A stretch of 64,000 nucleotides of DNA from Powellomyces hirtus (lineage: Eukaryota > Chytridiomycota > Chytridiomycetes > Spizellomycetales > Powellomycetaceae). Both the position numbers and the translations under genes were made by a program. This document shows, piece after piece, positions 1-10,525 of this stretch (positions are counted from its first letter, which is position 1; the number at the start of each line of letters is the position of its first letter). The stretch is taken from contig JAHLKG010000002.1 of assembly GCA_025526995.1 (NCBI GenBank), positions 1,178,001-1,242,000 on the forward strand, given 5' to 3'. Below the pieces are notes generated by a model that did no database searches, was not told the DNA's origin, and worked only from the letters and a program-made list of their open reading frames with translations.

Positions 1-906
1 CTCATTTTTCTATATATTCACAAAGCCAATCAACAATCAAGAGGACTCGGCCAAACCTTAAGCAGTCATGACTCTATAGATGCACAGCACACTTAGCATT
101 TTGTCTTGCTCTGTTGAGTCCACACACATTCTCAAACTTTTCTTCTCCAAATAAAATACAAGGATATCTCTATCCTCTCTTTGTTCATGAATATGCCACA
201 CTTCCTCAACTGTTCTAGTACACTAGTTGCTCACAGGTTCATTGGCGTATTTGATTTCCATAGAGAATGCATGACCTGTAATTTTGATGGTCAGAGTGCT
301 TTGGAAATGTTTGGTCAAACTCTGGTCATTCATAGTTGTGCCATCAGCACAACATTCAGGTTGTTGCAGAACTGCAATGCCTTGGTTGCGCAATGGAGTG
401 AAGATCGGTAGAAATGGTGCATTCATGAAGTGTATTGAAAAAATTGGCATCAAACTGCTTTAGAAATGTATCTTTTGGCAGAATCTCCAGCAGATAACTG
501 TTAGTAACAAAAAGCAAAACACATAATGGATTGCAGATCTTAAATAAACTTTTTGCCGACTAGTTTAGTGAGTTTAATTCAACATCACTAAAATTAATCA
601 AATTTTTAACAATGAGTACTTGGAAATTATGTTTGTAATTTTGAACAACTGGCTCAATAAACGTTATCTTGAATCCACTCGGTGAACTCTATTCAAATTT
701 CATTTGATCATCACATGACAAGATAACTATTTTCATTACATTTTTAACTGTTTTTGTTTGACATCTAATTTTTTCAATATTAAAAAGATGTTATTGTGCA
801 TAAGTATTATTATAGGCATTATATACACTGTTTTTTTTTTTTTTTTTTTGTTTAGTTTACTTCTTTTATTTAATGTATTTTTTTCAGAATTGTAATTTTT
901 ATTTAA
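1..906. other. AT-rich gene-free left edge
   Basis: I can support no gene here. The stretch from about 480 to 900 is strongly AT-rich and holds a run of T at about 832-850. Short open frames on both strands (about 181-411 forward, 223-453 reverse) have no motif I recognise and may be remnants of older coding or repeat sequence. Confidence 0.5.
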
Positions 907-1425
907 ATGCATATGCAGCACACTGCACAAAAAGGTCCCCACCTACATATGTTACTACATTATGACATTGTCAAAACCGTTAAGGCAGATATTGAATTCG
1001 ACGTTGACATTCGGGTGAAAGTAACCATTAACCCAAGAATTGACTCCTCTCAAAAAGGTCTTGCGGGTCTTGAGTTTATCCCTGGGCTGGAAAAAGAAGT
1101 GGCCACCTTAGCAAGTCTGATCCGGAAGAATGCGGTTGACGATGTAGCCCCCCTGCAGTGGCGTTGGCCTTTCTCATCCTTTGCACATGAGCCAGCATTA
1201 TCGGAAGGAATGATACTTGGCACCTTGATGGCTTATGCAGTCGATAAGACCACTCAAGCGGTTGGAGTGCATTCAAATGAAGCACAAATGAAAACTCTGT
1301 ATGTGCGATTAATACAAGACTGCTTTCAATATCTTGCTCCACAATTTATGGCTGGCTTGGAGTTCCCGCACAAGTTCACCAAGGACAGTGTCGGAGAAAC
1401 CTCATATTCTTATACTTTTTCGTGA
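907..1425 (+). CDS. hypothetical protein, possible fragment
   Basis: An ATG-started frame of 172 codons with no interruption. I do not recognise the family. The middle contains aromatic, tryptophan-bearing stretches such as PLQWRWPFSSF, and the C-terminal half is helical in character; there is no signal peptide or membrane segment. It lies in an AT-rich, gene-poor zone beside decayed coding fragments, so it could be an orphan gene, one exon of a larger gene, or debris. Composition is more AT-rich than the gene-dense part of the window. No neighbouring exon could be joined to it with confidence. Confidence 0.3.
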   Translation: MHMQHTAQKGPHLHMLLHYDIVKTVKADIEFDVDIRVKVTINPRIDSSQKGLAGLEFIPGLEKEVATLASLIRKNAVDDVAPLQWRWPFSSFAHEPALSEGMILGTLMAYAVDKTTQAVGVHSNEAQMKTLYVRLIQDCFQYLAPQFMAGLEFPHKFTKDSVGETSYSYTFS

Positions 1426-2040
1426 TTTTCTGATTATGTTATACGTGATCCTTTGTTCGGACTGGCCACCCGTTCATCGGTGATACACATGACTCCTGAC
1501 TCATAGGCAATAAAGCGCCTCCCGGATAAATTATGTGTGCGCCACCCTGACACGCATTATATAAAGCTGTCAGCCGCTGGTCGCCCTTCTCCGCTCGTTA
1601 CCTTACAACACACGATAATACACACTATTTATTACTATCAACTCTCAAAGCTTCCTTTGACGTTACAGACAGCAGTGTGCATTAGTTGCAAGTAGGTGCG
1701 CTGGAGGGTAATCGCTTAGACGGCCAAGCTCAAAGTTACAAGTAGCAAAGAAGCAAAAGTAGTGTATTGCCGATAGCATAACAAGTCTCTCATAAATCTC
1801 TCTCATAGCAGGGGGCGGGCGTAAAGAGCCCCTGGGCTTAAGAGCAAAATGGGTGAAGACAGCAGCGGCTCTAGAACAATGGGAACCAAGTGGGGACCGT
1901 GCCACCAAAGACGCGTGGTGGAGAGGATTAATCATGGAACCGTGTGCCACTTAAGACGTGTACGTGGCACAGTTCGTAGGTAGCAGAGTGAAGGAAATAG
2001 CCATGTACCGTCCAAAGAACCGTGGATGGTACAGTACGAT
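1426..2040. other. Intergenic, no gene seen
   Basis: No supported gene. A reverse-strand open frame (about 1951-2406) has a stretch, VIFMDERGIRL, that faintly recalls the second catalytic Asp region of Tc1/IS630 transposases. The rest of that frame does not follow the family, and it lies opposite the better-supported forward fragment. Confidence 0.35.
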
Positions 2041-2652
2041 AGTGTCCAAGATAGAAGAATAGAAGCAAAGGAATAAAGGCTTCTGACCGGCCGGAGCTCC
2101 TTGGTATCCCAACAGGATTGCCTCCAATCCGATGTCACGATTACCGCAGTGGCGGAAACCCACAAACAGAAGTTTGGCGTGCTTGTGGTCGAATTTCAGC
2201 CGGATGCCTCTCTCATCCATAAAGATCACCTCGTGTGCACTGTCGAGGCGGTTGTTGAGCTGCGAAAAATGATTCCTCTGCTCCCTACGGAAAACATCGA
2301 AGACTTCGTCATCTATTTCGCTTTGGCGGATTGTAAAAAGATTACAATTCACCAAATGAGAGCCGTTGACCGCCTTGGCGGATTGTGCTTCGGTGTAGAT
2401 CGTCATGGTCCCAGTTTTCGCCTTCTGGACGGAGACACCGAGGACAAGATTTCGGAAGCGCTACGACTTGCGTGCTACATCAAGAGCACCATCATCCCCG
2501 ATGCGCAGAAAATCCAGAATGCCTTGAAGGTCGGAACAGTGAGCTGGAAGACGGACCAACGGATTCTCTGCTTGCCACGTCAGGCTCCCACCCCTCGGAT
2601 CTCCAAAGCGGAGTTCACACCAGTGAAGAAGAGGATTAAGTGTGCAATATAG
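1984..2652 (+). pseudogene. decayed hypothetical protein, possible nuclease-like fold
   Basis: A forward frame stays protein-like from about 1984 to 2652 but has an in-frame TAA at 2074-2076 and no credible ATG start. The conceptual protein has a hydrophobic beta-strand with a following Glu (FGVLVVEFQP, near 2180), then a helix, then a second strand pair (FVIYFALADCKKITIHQM). That order (strand-E, helix, strand) is loosely like the restriction-endonuclease-type domains of Crinkler-like and host-directed proteins that have expanded in some early fungi. The family link is inference from pattern only. It could also be one exon of a longer unknown gene. It ends in a basic tail just before the tandem repeat. 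Confidence 0.3.
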
Positions 2653-2789
2653 TCACTTGGCGGTTTGGATTTGATTTTGTGTAAATATTCAGAGGATAGG
2701 TGTGGAATGTAATCACCGCCTTGGCGGGTTGAATTTGGTCTTGTGTAAATATTCAGAGGATAGATCTGCAATATAATCACCGTTTTGAC
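2641..2789. repeat. tandem repeat, about 60-63 bp unit, 2.4 copies
   Basis: Two full imperfect copies and a partial third lie head to tail. The core TGTGTAAATATTCAGAGGAT occurs at about 2678 and 2741, each followed by a TG[TG][GC]AAT[AG]TA[AG]TCAC block. Unit one is about 2641-2700, unit two about 2701-2763, and the third starts at about 2764. The short palindrome CCGCCTTGGCGG in unit two also appears at about 2371, inside the upstream decayed frame, so the array may have grown from that sequence. Confidence 0.8.
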
Positions 2790-3237
2790 ACTGTCATATA
2801 ATTATATATGCACAGAAACCAGCATTACTGCTTCGTCGAGATGTCGAAGATCCGGGTTAGGGTTTACGCCATCGCCATCGCCAGCAGCACCGCTGTTTCC
2901 TCCGATTGTGACCAAACCCGTCGCTCCGGGATTGATATTGTCTCGCGGCGTCGACGCGAGTCGAGTCAAAGCCTTGAACACGAGGATCGCTTTAGCAAGT
3001 TGACACAGAAGTATGAGCAAACATCTCAAAAACTCAGCGATGTCCATGTTTTTGCAGTCCAAGATGGCCCAAAACGGCTCGCCCGACTCTGTGAGCAAAA
3101 CAATCGCGGCCGCTAAGCTAGTCTGTGATCGGTTCCACAAGGAACCCTCTGACGTTCGTGCCATACAGCAAGAGAAGCCAGGGCAATGCTGTATGGGGGC
3201 ACTTCTATGCGCTTGTAGACAGGGAGGACGAAAATGA
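2785..3237 (+). pseudogene. possible gene remnant, frame split by TGA
   Basis: One reading frame continues across 2785-3237 but is cut by an in-frame TGA at 3001-3003. The upstream half contains APGLILSRGVDASRVKALNT and the downstream half runs from MSKHLKNSAMSMFLQSKMAQ to a basic end. I do not recognise it. Another frame (about 2808-3116) and the reverse strand (2802-3260) are also open, so the coding strand is uncertain. It lies directly beside the decayed helicase gene, which supports reading this block as a zone of dying genes. Confidence 0.2.
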
Positions 3238-3416
3238 GGAGTAGGGTGAACGGGGAACATATAGTTATTAATCTGTTTTGAAGCCTAGTGCTGTCTTTGT
3301 AACGAAAGTAACTCACCACGCCTGTTGCTGGGTGGCTGCAAAACTTTGTCGGTGCTTGCTTCGGCCCTATGTACAGAAAGGGGATAATGGAAAAGCCTAA
3401 AACGAAAATCTCGTGC

Positions 3417-5684
3417 CTATCGAATCACACCAGATCCAGGCGATGATGCCTGGATCATATCGATCTCGTTCTCAACTTGGCGCTGGGTGGCCCATGGATA
3501 CACCGTCTGCACCAATCCCACAACTGAAATGTGATGTTCCTGCAATGCGTCCGCCACGTGACCGAAGGTAGTGCCCGTCTTCATGACGTCGTCGAAGAGC
3601 AGCACATGTGTACCGGGAGGGGGCAGCTTTGTCTCATCGAAACGATACTTGCGGAGGACTTTCTGACGATCCTCTTCAGTCTGTGCATCCATCATTGATT
3701 CGTCGACATCCGGATCCAACGTGACAAAGTCCACCAGCTCGAGCTGCAGGGCGTCGGCCAAGTCGCTGGCAGCCTGACGCACCCGAGCGTTACCATCTGT
3801 AATGCAACTAACGCACCATCTGGCCGGTAGCTCCTGGTAGCCCCGCATAAACGCAGCAGCGAAGATACGAAGGCGATCCGGTCCCATGTCAAGGTCAACG
3901 TTGGGCTTTTGCAGGCCATACACTTTGCGACCCTTTGCCGTGAGACGACGGCTGCAAAAGCGGCGGCCTGCGAACGAATCGGCGGGCAGATCATCCGAAT
4001 CCGGGGGATCGCACTCGCTCTCGGTGCATCGTTTGCACAAATAGTCGTCAAGGATGGTGGGGTCACCGAGCCTCCGCAGTAGCTCTTTCCATACGCATGA
4101 GCCACCATGGCGGTTGAGGCTCTTCATGAAAGCGAGCTTGTTGTCGCTGCTCTTCACGCCGTTGAGGATGTTCTCGTAGCGTTTGACGTCAGTATCGTCG
4201 CTACTGAGAATAAGCTGCTCTTCGGCGTCCTGTCGGAAGATGTCCAGGTCCACAGCATGGTTGATTGCAGCAACCGTTGTGGCATCTTTAATTTGCCCCT
4301 GCGACGGTCCACTGACGGCAGAAATGACGTCGTCAGAGCGAGCGGTCTGGTTGTGCCAGCGGTATAGGAAGCGGGCGGCAAAAATGAGCGCATTATCAGT
4401 GGACCTCTTGTTGAGAGGAACGGATGGCAGAAGCCAGGCACGCGCTGGCTGTCCCTCACGCCCGGCTCGTCCAATTTGCTGGTAGTACTCTGTCGGTGTA
4501 GCCGGAGTGAAGGTGTGGATCACAATGCGAGGGTCCGGCTTGTCGAAACCTACGCCGATGGCCCTGGTTGCGACTAGCACGCGTGTCTGACCGTGGCGGA
4601 AGCGGTCTTCCACCGCCTGGCGCGTTTTCTTGTCCAAGGAAGCATGATACATTTTAATTTCGCCCTGACCTCGCCTGACTTTGGGCACCTTCTTGAGTAG
4701 GTCGACGTATCTGCGACAGAGCTCCTTCCGGTTGACGAAAATGACGATGGACTCGGACGAGTTCTCCTCATGTAATCCTGAAGCCACCTGTCGATGGTAG
4801 CATCGCTGTGCCTGCCGGACACAATGCTCAGCGCAATGTTGGCACGCAGACGACCGCCGGGCACAAGCTTCCAGTCCCTAGCGCCGGGTAAGAAGGCGTT
4901 GACTGCGTTGCGCTCGTCGTCGTCGAGGGTGGCCGTGAGTCCAATCTTGCGTGCGTTTTTGTACCAGTAAACCTGGTCCAGTTTGCGTCACAACTTCAGC
5001 CAGGATGTGAAGAAGTTGTCCGTGGCCTCCGCAATGGTGTGTATTTCGTCGATAACCACGAGCGGAACACCATGCCACGATCCGCGACGTGTACCCCTGT
5101 ACTTGGGCATGAATTGCTTCACCTTCATAAGCGGTGACTCCGCTTGATGATCAATCGACCACAGCATCATGTCCGCCGTGACAAAGATGATGTCAATGTC
5201 ATTCGTAGTGCTCAGCTTAAAGGCGATATCGTCTTGGGTGACCTGCTTGGAAGTCGGCCTTGTTGCCGTACACCACAGCGTTGAAATCGAACTCCTTCGC
5301 TCGCTTAAGCTGATCGCTCAGCAACGCATTGGTCGGCACGAAGACAATGACAGGACCGGCACCGTCCGCCTTCTCCTTGTCGCTACGCAGCAGACGAGTG
5401 GCGAGGTAAAACGACTCGGTCTTTCCTTGCGCGGTGGCCGCCACGTTTATTACATCCTTGACATCGTGCGCGAGAAGGCCGTTCACACGCACTTGTGCGT
5501 CGTATACTTCGACAGGTTGTGTGCGCTGTGTCCCACGCGCAGCATCCCGTTTGTCCATGCCTGCACGCAGCAGGACAGTGAGATGTTTGCGGAAGGCATC
5601 GTCTGCGCGAGAAGGGGCAGGATTGGCCGTCTGAACAAGGGTGTTGCAGACGAGAGGGCGAATTGTGGCATATGCGTCGAACTA
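3417..5684 (-). pseudogene. RecQ-type helicase fused to PRTase domain, broken
   Basis: Reading the reverse strand from about 5684 gives an SF2 helicase: motif I AATAQGKTES, motif Ia VIVFVPTNALLSDQ, motif II VVIDEIHT, motif III LTATL, motif IV SIVIFVNR, motif V VATRAIGVGFDKPDP and a RecQ-like motif VI QQIGRAGREGQPA. A Cys-spaced block (C..., then CKRCTESEC) resembles the RecQ zinc-binding region. The C-terminus carries a PRPP-binding loop, VLLFDDVMKTGTT, typical of type I phosphoribosyltransferases. The gene is broken three times: a frame slip at about 5236-5245, an in-frame TGA at 4988-4990, and a one-base slip at about 4775. No initiator was found before stops at about 5687, so the 5' end may also be lost. 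It has no introns over 2.2 kb, unlike every large neighbour except INO1. Known RecQ proteins unwind DNA; pairing with a PRTase is, to my knowledge, mainly bacterial. Lateral origin is inference. Confidence 0.8.
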
Positions 5685-5697
5685 TCATCCCCTTGAC

Positions 5698-5729
5698 TTT
5701 CTTCTTCTTCTTCTTCTTCTTCTTCTTCC
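5698..5729. repeat. (TTC)n microsatellite
   Basis: About ten perfect TTC/CTT repeats lie just beyond the 5' end of the broken helicase frame. The antisense reading gives a run of Lys or Glu codons, which explains the long but meaningless reverse frames there. Confidence 0.9.
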
Positions 5730-6094
5730 CGTACGTCTGTCTTGTCTTTGACAGTTTTGACAGTTTCAGTCCGGCCTGGCGTTGTCCATCGGAACAAGCG
5801 CGTTTCCAACAAGCGCAAGTCATGTGACTTTGGTTCAGCAGAAGCGTCAGATATCCGACCGACACAAAAAGCCTGTCTGCTCATCCCCCTCGTCTTGCCC
5901 CCTCACGTTCTTTCTGTTCGTACCTGCTCCCTTGCGCTCCAGAAATCAAGCGAGACAATTGCGTTCTCTCTCTCTTTCAGCTTTTCGCTCAAACGTACTG
6001 CAACCAACCCACCCCGCTTTTACTCTGGGTCGTTACTGCCGCACTCCTGACGCAACAAACACAGATCTTTTTTTGTCAAAACTCTTTTTTCACA
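5730..6094. promoter_or_regulatory. promoter and leader of the GYF-domain gene
   Basis: No gene. A pyrimidine-rich tract with many CTCTCT and CTTTT runs leads to the ATG at 6095, as is common upstream of fungal start sites. No TATA element is placed with confidence. Confidence 0.35.
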
Positions 6095-9000
6095 ATGGCA
6101 ATGAACTTTGGACCGCAGTGGTAAGTCAACCTCTGCCTAAAGACTCGCCCGACGGTTCTCGGAGCCATGGACATCTTTGTCGTCTGGGTGGGCGGCATGG
6201 CGCTGTTTAAACCTGCGCAAGCCTCATTGCTAGCTGTCGCTGATCTGACGGAAAAAAAAAATTGTGTTCCCAATTGCCAGGATGCGAAAAATTCCCACAA
6301 ATGAAAATGCCGGGCGCTCATCCCCTACTTTGACGCCCACAACACCCAATGGATCTGCTCCGAATATTCTCTGGGGAAGTGGCGCTGGTATCAAAGCAAC
6401 AACTCCGGTTGCAGCCGACCAGCATTCCAGCAACAGCATGCTCCAACCTCGGGAGTCGGCTAACCCATCCTCTGCTGGTGCTGCAAATGGCCCCAGTAGT
6501 GGATGGGCCTCATCGTCTGCACAAGAGTCTTCTCAGTACAAATATTCGAGAGAATTCATCTTGAGCCTGTTCGACCCGGCCATTCCTGTACCTCCGGACT
6601 ATGAACCCGCAGGCGTGATGACATCGGACCGTGCCCTGGAACCGATGGCGAACATTCCTCTGAATGAAAACGAGAAGAAGGTATGTAGGTTTGCGGTGTA
6701 TATCCGGGCTTACGGGTGAAACGATGAGGCGTAGTCGTTGGTTGGCATTTGTGGCTTTTTGAACTTCAAATGGAGTCATCGAGTTCCGGTGACTGTCCCG
6801 CAAAGTCAAATCTCGGAGATAGCCCGCCAATCGTATTAGATGGTTCATGGCGTTTTGCCCTCACCACTCGACCAACGTGTGTCTGGCGCGAAGGAGCGGA
6901 CCGTCATTTACCGTTGTCTCCTCGGTCTTTCACTTTTTTTCGGCTGCGTTATGAATGCGTGAAAGCTCATGGCGATAAACTAGTCTTACGCAAAGTTAAC
7001 GTGATGGTTGTACCTGTAGCTCTTCACATCCCAGTCCGTGAACAGTGAAATCAGCGCGCGACGAACACCGTATGGTCGAGGCGAAACCAAAGAAGGCGTC
7101 GTGCGACCTCCTCGAGCTCCAGGCACCGCTCAAAGAGGTACTAAACAACCGCAGAAGCCCTTTCGATGGGGTATATCTCTTACAAATGTGACAATTTTTT
7201 CCAGGTTATTCAAACCGCATAGACCGCGGCGGCTCTCAGAGCGATGGTTACAGACCCACGCGAAAAGCAGACGCCACTGGTGATGAAGACCCTTGGGATA
7301 TTCCCGCTGGTGTTGGCAGCTTCAGCGGAAATGGCTTCTTTAGCCGCGAGGATGAGGCAAACGCCGCCAGAAATGGTCCTAATGAAGGCGCTCGCGAAGG
7401 CTCTATGCTCCACAACAGTCGAGGAAGAGAGTCGCCCGCTCGCTCTGCTTCCCCGGTTTCCGACAGGCGCTCTGTTTCTCCTGGCAAGGGAAGTCGCCGC
7501 GCCCCGTCGCCACTCAAAGCTGCCCCTACAACGCAAGGACAGACTAGTAGCGTGGCAAATGGCGGCATGTCAACCGCTGCAGCTGCGCCAACGTCGTCAA
7601 CTGCATCGGCGCAGCATGGTCGAAGCAACGAAGGGACCGGACAAAGCCGGACCTCCTTCGTTGACATGTTCAGCACGTTTGGTTCTTCTCCTCTAGGCAC
7701 GCCCATGGGGCTCCCGAACAGTTCTTCATCTCTCAAAGCTGACATGAGCCTCGGTCTGGGGAAGCTCTCTTCTGAGCCGATCATTCCACCCATTATGACG
7801 CGGAGCTTATCAAAGAACGATCTGCTCCAGACACCGGTTCAAAACTCTTTGCCACCACCAGGGATTATACCGGCTCCGACACCTTTTGTTGCTCAGCAAT
7901 GGCAATACAAAGATCCCAGCGGAAGCATTCAAGGTATGTTGATCTCTGTAAATGTTCCGAGAAACACAGTTCGCACGCTAAATTCTGCAAATTCTGCTCG
8001 CAGGCCCCTTTACCGCAGGCCAAATGCAGGATTGGTTCCGATCGGGATACTTCAATGATGACCTGCCCATCAAGCGCGTGGAGGATTACAACTACGAGCC
8101 CCTGGCACGGCTTTTGCTGAAGCACGGCCGAGATCGTCCATTCCTCGCGGACTTGGAAGAGGCCGAACTACGTCACCAGCAGCTCGAAAGTCAGAAGCGT
8201 ATGCCCGCTCCAAATCCGACAGCTTTTGTCGGCATGTACCAAAATGAGGTCTCCACTCCAGGGAGCATGGGCTACAATGCCTTTGGTACCTTTGGCACTG
8301 GTGCTGGGACCTCTTCATTATACACAGCAAACGCTGCCAATGCCGATCCCTTCTCGTCTTTGGGCCGAGACAGATTTGGTACAGGGGGATATGACCCACT
8401 CAGTGCCGGGGGTTACGGCAGGACATCGTGGGGAGAAACCCCGGCGTTGAGCCGTGGTGGGTGGTCCGGTCTGAACACGGACTTGGGCTCGCCGTTCAAC
8501 CGGCCCGCGGCTGCACCCGGATCGCCCGCTGGAAGTCTTCAGTCTTCTTACTTTGACACACGTGGGGCATTACAGACGCAAGACGGCTATGGAGGTGGCG
8601 TTTCGAACCAACGCGCTGCCTCGTCGTTTGCTCCCTTCTCTGGACCCCAAGCACCACAAAGCCCGGCAACCAACCTATTCTCTGGACAACCCATCCTGGA
8701 CTTTACCGCGTCTCAGATTGCTCGAGGAAGTCAGCCGGAGTGGGGTGGGATGCAAGGATTGGTAGGATCGCACTACCACGAGGACGGTCATGCTCCACTT
8801 GACGTGATCTCCAAGCTCATCGATGAGAGTCACTACGAAACTGAGGAGATGGCTGCCCAAGAAAAGCAAGGGTTGGACGAGCCAAATGTCAAACAGGTCG
8901 AAGACGAGTTTGCAGATCTAAGCGTTGCACCCGTTGCAGAATCGTTGTCACAAGAAGCGAAGGCAGCGGATGAACCGCAGAGTCCCGTCAAACAGGAGAA

Positions 9001-10525
9001 GGGAGTTGAAAAGCACGTCGGAAAGGCGCGCAAAACCCGAAAGGAGGAACGACAAGAGCGTTTCGAACGTGAAAATGAATTGCGCAAAGAACAAAGCAAG
9101 CAAACTGCCGAGAAGGCCGAGCGCAAGCCCACCGAGTCTGCAGCTGTTGACCTTCGACAAATTATATCGGAGCAAGAAAGCCGGAGCAAGCAGGAAAAGG
9201 AGCAGGCTCAACTTGAGAGGAACAAACAAATGCAACGGGAGATCGAGGAGGCGGAGCAGATGGCTGGGGTCTCTCCTTCTGCGTGGGCCAGTGGAACTAC
9301 GGACCAGCCGAAACTGAGCTTGAAACAAATTCAAGAGATTGAGCAAAAGCGCAGAGCACTTGAAGAGAGCGAGAGAAGCCGTCGTGCTCACGAGGCCATG
9401 ATCCAGCAAGCTCAAATGCTTCAGGAGCAAGATGCTCTTTCCGCATCCCAATCTTGGGCAAAGGAGCAGGCCCAAGGCGGCGCTGTATGGGGATCCACAG
9501 CCAAACCACAGCCTGCCCGTCAAAAGAGCTTGGCCGAGATCATGGAGGAAGAAGAGAAGCGCAAACGCAAGGAGGCCGACCTCCGTGGCGTGCAAATCGC
9601 CGATGTGGTCATGCCCACTGGTTCTGGCAAGCGCTACGCTGATACCATCTCCACGGTCGGAAACAGCAGCACCATTGCGTGGGGACTCGCAGCCGCAGGT
9701 GCGCGACCCCCGGTGGTAAACCGCCCAGCTGCTGTCATCGCTACTGGAAACGTAGTCAAGGCTACGCCGCCGGTCGCCGCTGCGGGACGGCCCGACGAGA
9801 ACGTCATTGGCGCCTGGAACGTTGTTGGCAAACAAGGCCAGGTTGTTAGGTAAATTACCCGTCACAAATCCGACGTTATGACGTACAGTGTCATCTAACC
9901 AATGCTTTTTGGATATGAAGACCTCCTGCGCCTGTCGCTCGAACCGCCGCAGTCCCCGCTCCTCGCCCCGTTGCACCCGCGGCACCTAGGATTGTGTCTG
10001 TCCAGGTATCATCCACTCCTGCCCCTGTGGCACCCACACACCACGACAGCAGCAAAGGCCCATCAAGTGCTTTCATGCAATGGTGTCGCTCAGCGTTGCG
10101 ACCTTTGGAACGGAGCACCTCCGCTGGTGTGAATGGTATGTATCGTTACATTTTGACCTTCCTGATACATGAAGCAATAGAGGGCTAAACATTGCTCATT
10201 CATTGCAGTGGACGATTTCATCGGCATCCTCCTATCGATCAGCATCCACGAACCCGCTATCACACAGAGCATCTGTGACGACATTCTTGGTGGTTTGACC
10301 GCCATTGACCCCCGCAAGTTTGCCGATGAGTTCATTCGAAAGCGAAAGGCAGATGCCAGCGGATCGTCGTTGACAGCTGCCTCAGCAACTGAGGGCGGCT
10401 GGACGTCCGTTGGAAGCGGCGCTGTCGCCCCGCAGCCCGTGCAAACCTTGGACTCGTTCGATTCTGGAAACAAGTTTGTGGTTGTTGGAAAACAAAACAA
10501 AAAGAAGAAGGGAAAGAAGGTTTAA
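6095..10525 (+). CDS. GYF-domain protein (Smy2/GIGYF-like)
   Basis: Seven exons (6095-6120, 6281-6680, 7035-7137, 7205-7933, 8004-9849, 9921-10135, 10209-10525) join in frame to 1,211 residues. The GYF domain spans the fourth intron: WQYKDPSGSIQGPF, then MQDWFRSGYFNDDLPIKR, matching the family's W-Y-DP-G...GPF...M..W...GYF pattern that binds proline-rich ligands. The N-terminal third is Ser/Pro/Gly-rich. After the GYF domain comes a Gly/Ala-rich region, then a long charged coiled coil (roughly 8900-9600) rich in Glu, Gln, Lys and Arg. The C-terminus (MQWCRSALRPLERS... to FADEFIRKRK) forms a helical conserved end as in GIGYF/Smy2 proteins, and the gene closes with a Lys-rich tail. Known relatives repress translation and act with mRNA decay or COPII factors. 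The second intron (354 nt) is long for this locus. Which fungal paralogue it matches best is not decided. Confidence 0.88.

Follow-up and report, generated by a model that had tools for sequence, protein, structure and literature searches.

The closest described relatives of the gene considered here are the bacterial proteins RqlH and PsyrT. To judge from the title of a reference cited in PMC4670107, RqlH was introduced as a bacterial clade of RecQ-like helicases. PMC4670107 describes PsyrT as an orthologue of RqlH, surveys the distribution of RqlH in bacteria and reports RqlH without detectable RqlI in 55.3% of the strains surveyed. When the partner RqlI is absent, RqlH is reported to cause SOS induction and growth loss in E. 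coli. Two further proteins are of interest for the C-terminal domain of the gene: ComF, a competence phosphoribosyltransferase (PRTase), which is a stand-alone protein (PMC5512222), and ShosT, the PRTase toxin of the phage-defence system ShosTA. Here we describe a locus on the minus strand (3417-5681) of a 64,000-nucleotide stretch of the Powellomyces hirtus genome (C2:1178001-1242000 of a 29.3-Mb, 60-contig assembly; hereafter the window), in which a RecQ-like helicase is followed by a C-terminal PRTase in a single gene composed of collinear frame pieces. The locus is quite probably a single, recently broken copy that belongs to a eukaryotic branch of RqlH/PsyrT, with the RecQ-like helicase fused to a ComF/ShosT-type PRTase.

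Gene structure and breaks in the reading frame

The preliminary description had recognised a helicase-PRTase fusion on the reverse strand, and all of its elements are present: the RecQ-like core, DEIH, motif VI, the Cys block and the loop that would bind phosphoribosyl pyrophosphate (PRPP) (Table 1). The in-frame stop and the two single-base frame slips that it reported were also located, the slips near 5245 and near 4770. Pieces 1 and 4 lie in one frame, and pieces 2 and 3 lie in another, where they are split by the stop. All four pieces align collinearly to the same relatives: pieces 1 and 2 match P0009 of Geranomyces at 78% over 125 and 85% over 84 amino acids, respectively; pieces 3 and 4 match P0002 of Thoreauomyces at 78% over 73 and 76% over 444 amino acids, respectively. 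This collinearity indicates that the series of frames is not due to chance. P0002 and P0009 align without a gap across all three inner breaks, so introns do not explain them, and no run of one base longer than three is found at those sites. The usual start has no ATG; the first in-frame ATG (5556-5558) lies downstream of the P0009 start point. In the Pfam scan of piece 4, made on 3420-4805, Helicase_C was matched with an E value of 1.9e-21 and Pribosyltran with 2.6e-05, slightly under the Pfam cut-off. Judged from its sequence, this copy, which has no uninterrupted helicase, is most likely non-functional.

Table 1. Features of the helicase-PRTase locus, in window coordinates.
Feature	Position	Strand	Remarks
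Frame piece 1	5220..5681	-	N-terminal part of the helicase; motif I ATAQGKT at 5418-5438; Pfam DEAD E 9.5e-07; PADLOC PsyrT E 5.6e-07
Frame piece 2	4991..5269	-	Motif II DEIH at 5039-5050; weak Pfam DEAD match, E 0.045; no PADLOC match
In-frame stop	4988..4990	-	Tryptophan at the same place in P0002, P0005 and P0009
Frame piece 3	4772..4987 (open frame 4574-4987)	-	Last part of helicase domain 1 and first part of domain 2; no Pfam match by itself (scanned as 4574-4987)
Frame piece 4	3420..4772	-	Helicase domain 2, motif VI at 4443-4478, Cys block and PRTase; stop at 3417
Cys block, RecQ zinc-site-like, four conserved cysteines	4011..4097	-	Matching Cys invariant in 18/18 aligned relatives
PRTase domain	3420..3983	-	
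PRPP-binding loop VLLFDDVMKTGTT	3567..3605	-	One D and the last T invariant in 27/27 aligned sequences

Membership of the RqlH/PsyrT family

The order of helicase core, Cys block and C-terminal PRTase is like that of E. coli RqlHI, P. syringae PsyrTA and M. smegmatis RqlH. A profile of the eukaryote-type proteins (defined below) aligned collinearly with a profile of bacterial RqlH over 619 columns, through the PRPP loop, with an E value of 2.6e-87. Every feature looked for in a member of the RqlH/PsyrT superfamily was found, namely the superfamily 2 core motifs I, II and VI, a Cys block followed by a PRTase, and end-to-end homology, with the three helicase motifs of the window copy spread over different frame pieces. 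The PADLOC PsyrT model was matched by all 18 eukaryote-type members scanned and was the best model for P0002 and for the metagenome proteins P0004, P0125 and P0122. Among bacterial proteins, P0025 matched the same model along the whole length and P0130 along most of it. In a scan of piece 1, piece 2, the C-terminal piece and the PRTase domain of the window copy, it was matched by the C-terminal piece (2.2e-34), by piece 1 (5.6e-07) and by the PRTase domain (2e-06), and the small piece 2 matched nothing. These sequence comparisons suggest that the locus, in its broken state, belongs to a eukaryotic branch of a known family, and that this branch is apparently undescribed. The pairing of domains had been noted as one known mainly from bacteria, near defence loci; its counterpart, which had not been named there, is the defence-like RqlH/PsyrT family.

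The branch differs from the bacterial proteins in several respects. Compared with bacterial RqlH/PsyrT, the eukaryote-type proteins form a separate, long-stemmed clade, and their PRTase region has no middle insert of the bacterial kind. Unlike the PsyrTA/RqlHI system, the locus has no partner in the searches made: PsyrA/RqlI, the DprA-like antitoxin, had no match in this genome, whereas the control was positive in 11 of 14 genomes. In the bacterial survey cited above, RqlH likewise stands without RqlI in more than half of the strains. The PADLOC DpdF models also matched all 18 relatives scanned, but every DpdF row listed was weaker than PsyrT for the six proteins compared. As a separate observation, two PADLOC models that bear the DpdF label, PDLC02866 and PDLC02869, have matches in the PRTase region of the bacterial RqlH proteins P0025 and P0130; some RqlH genes may thus be labelled DpdF by such scans.

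The helicase part by itself matches RecQ models, as would be expected of an ordinary fungal RecQ that carries a PRPP-like motif by chance. Unlike RecQ, BLM and WRN, seven relatives showed no RQC or HRDC Pfam match (E up to 0.1), and the canonical RecQs fall outside the group in the tree. The host RecQ is a separate gene on contig C6, which speaks against the vertical fungal RecQ that had been named as a possible refutation. For the PRTase domain, the prediction is of high confidence and its matches are PRTases. Bacterial contamination is opposed by the 2.03-Mb contig on which the gene lies and by the 1.26-Mb contig that holds the Gaertneriomyces relative. Taken as one alternative, an ordinary RecQ or a contaminant is barely credible.

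The PRTase domain and the PRPP loop

The fold search with the whole protein listed no PRTases, because helicases filled the list; the PRTase domain was then folded separately. Folded alone, it gave a high-confidence prediction with a ComF- and ShosT-like fold. The predicted fold is like that of ShosT, with a sequence identity of 10%, but the ShosT model of PADLOC has 237 positions and is too short to contain a helicase of this kind. The likeness to ComF is similar, with a sequence identity of 16%.

One aspartate and the last threonine of the PRPP loop are invariant in all 27 aligned sequences, bacterial rows included. The loop pattern matched 19 of 28 eukaryote-type proteins, and most of the nine without a match are models that break off early. 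A different PRTase loop (SGAT and then KEIGR or EEITR) was observed in the bacterial-type RecQ proteins P0044, P0081, P0086 and P0269, and those of the four that were included in trees lie outside the RqlH rows.

Relatives and phylogeny

Among the best 120 of 673 protein matches, the top named ones were from Thoreauomyces humboldtii (P0002; 76%) and Gaertneriomyces semiglobifer (P0003; 52%), both spanning 96% of the query, and Geranomyces variabilis (P0005 and P0009) matched at 61% over 40% and at 76% over 13% of the query. All three genera belong to the Spizellomycetales, and these nearest relatives mark the host as chytrid-like. Metagenome proteins at 31-42% were interspersed with or followed these named matches, and bacterial RecQ-type proteins came after them; the bacterial-type matches that cover most of the query reach 24-27%. 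Two profile searches added further metagenome members. Each protein search scored about 8,000 candidates and gave at most 120 of them, and more relatives may exist.

Three metagenome members (P0008, P0129 and P0231) carry insertions of 26-31 residues that start with V or VR and end with Q, with a gap shift allowed. The insertions read like unspliced GT..AG introns, which points to eukaryotic sources; to judge from these sequences, they look like retained introns. Among the metagenome members, a eukaryotic source is indicated for these three, and the term eukaryote-type is applied to the group as a whole. P0227, an archaeon by its source label, sits within the eukaryote-type clade, and the label was not relied on. 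In the fungal relatives, the gene models of P0005, P0009 and P0003 are cut short, out of frame or devoid of the DEIH segment. These damaged-looking models suggest repeated loss among chytrids.

A careful tree was built from 42 rows, comprising 17 eukaryote-type, 14 bacterial RqlH and 11 RecQ or other sequences. The eukaryote-type rows fall into a single clade (bootstrap 100; Shimodaira-Hasegawa-like approximate likelihood ratio test, SH-aLRT, 100) on a stem of 1.58, the 14 RqlH rows form another (96/92) with the eukaryote-type rows outside, and the two are united against the 11 RecQ or other rows (100/97). A quick tree of 72 rows again gave both clades (100, 92) and again joined them (98), and its RecQ rows were not monophyletic. 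The window copy is nearest to Thoreauomyces and groups with the named Spizellomycetales.

The preliminary description took the gene to be probably acquired laterally and proposed a tree as the check. The tree upholds the bacterial link, as a sister relation to RqlH, and speaks against recent transfer. The best-known members of the family are bacterial, which a recent bacterium-to-fungus transfer into this lineage would account for. A separate eukaryote-type clade in which the window copy lies nearest to Thoreauomyces does not support such a recent gift; the identities to Thoreauomyces and Gaertneriomyces far exceed those of the bacterial-type matches, and the GC content at third codon positions (GC3) of the gene, 0.66, is inside the range of 0.53-0.77 found in 19 host stretches. 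No close prokaryotic donor was found in two pattern scans of 84,980 prokaryote species, which are weak negatives because the contig scans rest on few short peptides. The second scan returned two loci, in Bacteroides luti and a Sphingomonadales metagenome-assembled genome, at 23-25% and over residues 182-382 only. A recent arrival at or near this lineage is thus very improbable. On the present sequences, recent transfer is not supported and any transfer would be ancient; the distribution may be explained by such an ancient transfer, whichever its direction, or by common ancestry followed by loss.

Age of the breaks

Old decay of the locus was considered and rejected, as the window copy shows no excess of amino-acid change. 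In relative-rate counts with P0004 as the outgroup, it has 26 private changes compared with 20 in P0002 (p 0.46); the counts are 13:26 against P0009 (p 0.05), 29:43 against P0003 (p 0.12) and 10:31 against P0005 (p 0.001), where the P0005 count includes an out-of-frame stretch of the model. The window copy was never the significantly faster row. At sites that are invariant in distant members, changes were observed at 5/72 in the window copy, 3/58 in Thoreauomyces, 5/50 in Gaertneriomyces, and 7/45 (P0009) and 9/38 (P0005) in Geranomyces. Together with the host-like GC3, the lack of excess change indicates that the breaks are either young or errors. From this sequence evidence, the decay looks recent.

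If the organism had an uninterrupted gene and assembly errors had produced the breaks, the sequence between the breaks would likewise be without excess change, as is observed in the comparison with P0002. A second case of a frame change is found in a divergent HSP70-family gene at C7:1040096-1041656 (L040, L045, L046, L050), which also leaves no room for an intron and could be another pseudogene or an assembly error. Against assembly errors, the stop, both frame changes and the absence of a start all fall within 2.3 kb, and the inner breaks lack long base runs. Moreover, when 18 HSP70/TCP-1 match rows are read on the strand given, 9 of them contain no stop in 4,379 codons, a length in which about 17 breaks would be expected at a rate of three per 754 codons; this control is only rough, since the rows are exons chosen by match length. 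The remaining nine rows have stops at match edges or in unresolved stretches. An intact gene obscured by assembly errors is therefore unlikely, although it has the largest share among the alternatives.

Copy number and genomic surroundings

Intact copies elsewhere in the genome had been proposed as a further check. A search of the 29.3-Mb genome with the C-terminal piece returned no second copy, and the gene is present once. Of the 13 other matches, the best lies in the host RecQ on C6 (44% identity, query residues 19-123). A DNA search with 2400-6300, in which simple or very common words were skipped, returned only its own region and, on C29, a repeat of 121 bases.

A relic of a mobile-element or viral gene would fit the patchy distribution, the damaged-looking copies in several chytrid genomes and the long stem of the clade. 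The single copy argues against it, as does the absence of inverted repeats from window positions 1-8000, where one two-copy 64-base direct repeat was the only repeat of either kind. Five scans of viral contigs, with single proteins and with alignments, gave no relative. A fold search against viral models returned general helicases at the top, with a best TMq of 0.48 among the best 50 of 1581. A viral origin was also rejected in a tblastn search of phages with P0004, in which none of 24 records covered more than 80% of the query; the 10 rows listed showed 25-26% identity over 47-49% of it. Such a relic is improbable.

Several features surround the gene. Directly upstream, at window 5699-5728, the minus strand carries a (GAA)n-type run. 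The two tandem 64-base units, which are 86% alike, are located at window 2656-2783, and part of them recurs at C29:189399-189519 with 87% identity. No tRNA gene was found near the gene in a scan with bacterial settings. The preliminary description set the gene beside genes presumed to be intron-rich; one neighbour, on the plus strand at 7982-9853 and with a GYF domain, is open over 623 codons.

Discussion

Several points weigh against a broken eukaryotic RqlH/PsyrT gene as the account of this locus, or against what may be drawn from it. A tryptophan in the PRPP loop occurs in 30/30 bacterial RqlH rows and in 0/19 eukaryote-type loops; the residue is a trait of this sample and not a known published definition of the bacterial clade. 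Since the eukaryote-type loop lacks it, substrate and effect may differ between the two branches. Pfam Pribosyltran stays under its cut-off for the window piece, P0004, P0125, P0122 and P0006. The stem of 1.58 between the clades makes long-branch effects on the sister relation possible. The damage in P0003, P0005 and P0009 was read off gene models rather than DNA, the breaks in the window could be assembly errors, and any mechanism is carried over by analogy from E. coli.

By that analogy, we infer that the intact members may be helicase-gated PRTases. The helicase would load onto damaged or foreign DNA and would restrain the PRPP-binding PRTase domain. Once released, the PRTase would disturb the nucleotide supply and cause DNA stress, in the manner described for E. 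coli RqlH. Without an antitoxin, an unrestrained PRTase would carry a cost, so copies would be readily lost, which would fit the damage seen here, in Geranomyces and in Gaertneriomyces. As a tentative extension of the analogy, and one that is more doubtful than the family assignment, zoosporic fungi and other intron-bearing eukaryotes might keep an antitoxin-free RqlH/PsyrT-type effector for genome defence or cell suicide. In this effector, a helicase that senses abnormal DNA would control a PRTase that consumes PRPP, and repeated loss would follow from the harm done by an unchecked copy.

No eukaryotic RqlH member was found in the literature searched, which was available in part and covers few subscription journals, and the eukaryotic branch looks new to that literature. 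If true, a eukaryotic branch in which helicase and PRPP loop are conserved would place a DNA-acting helicase-PRTase among the bacterial conflict proteins that eukaryotes share. It would also permit testing how a toxin-like PRTase stays safe without the bacterial antitoxin.
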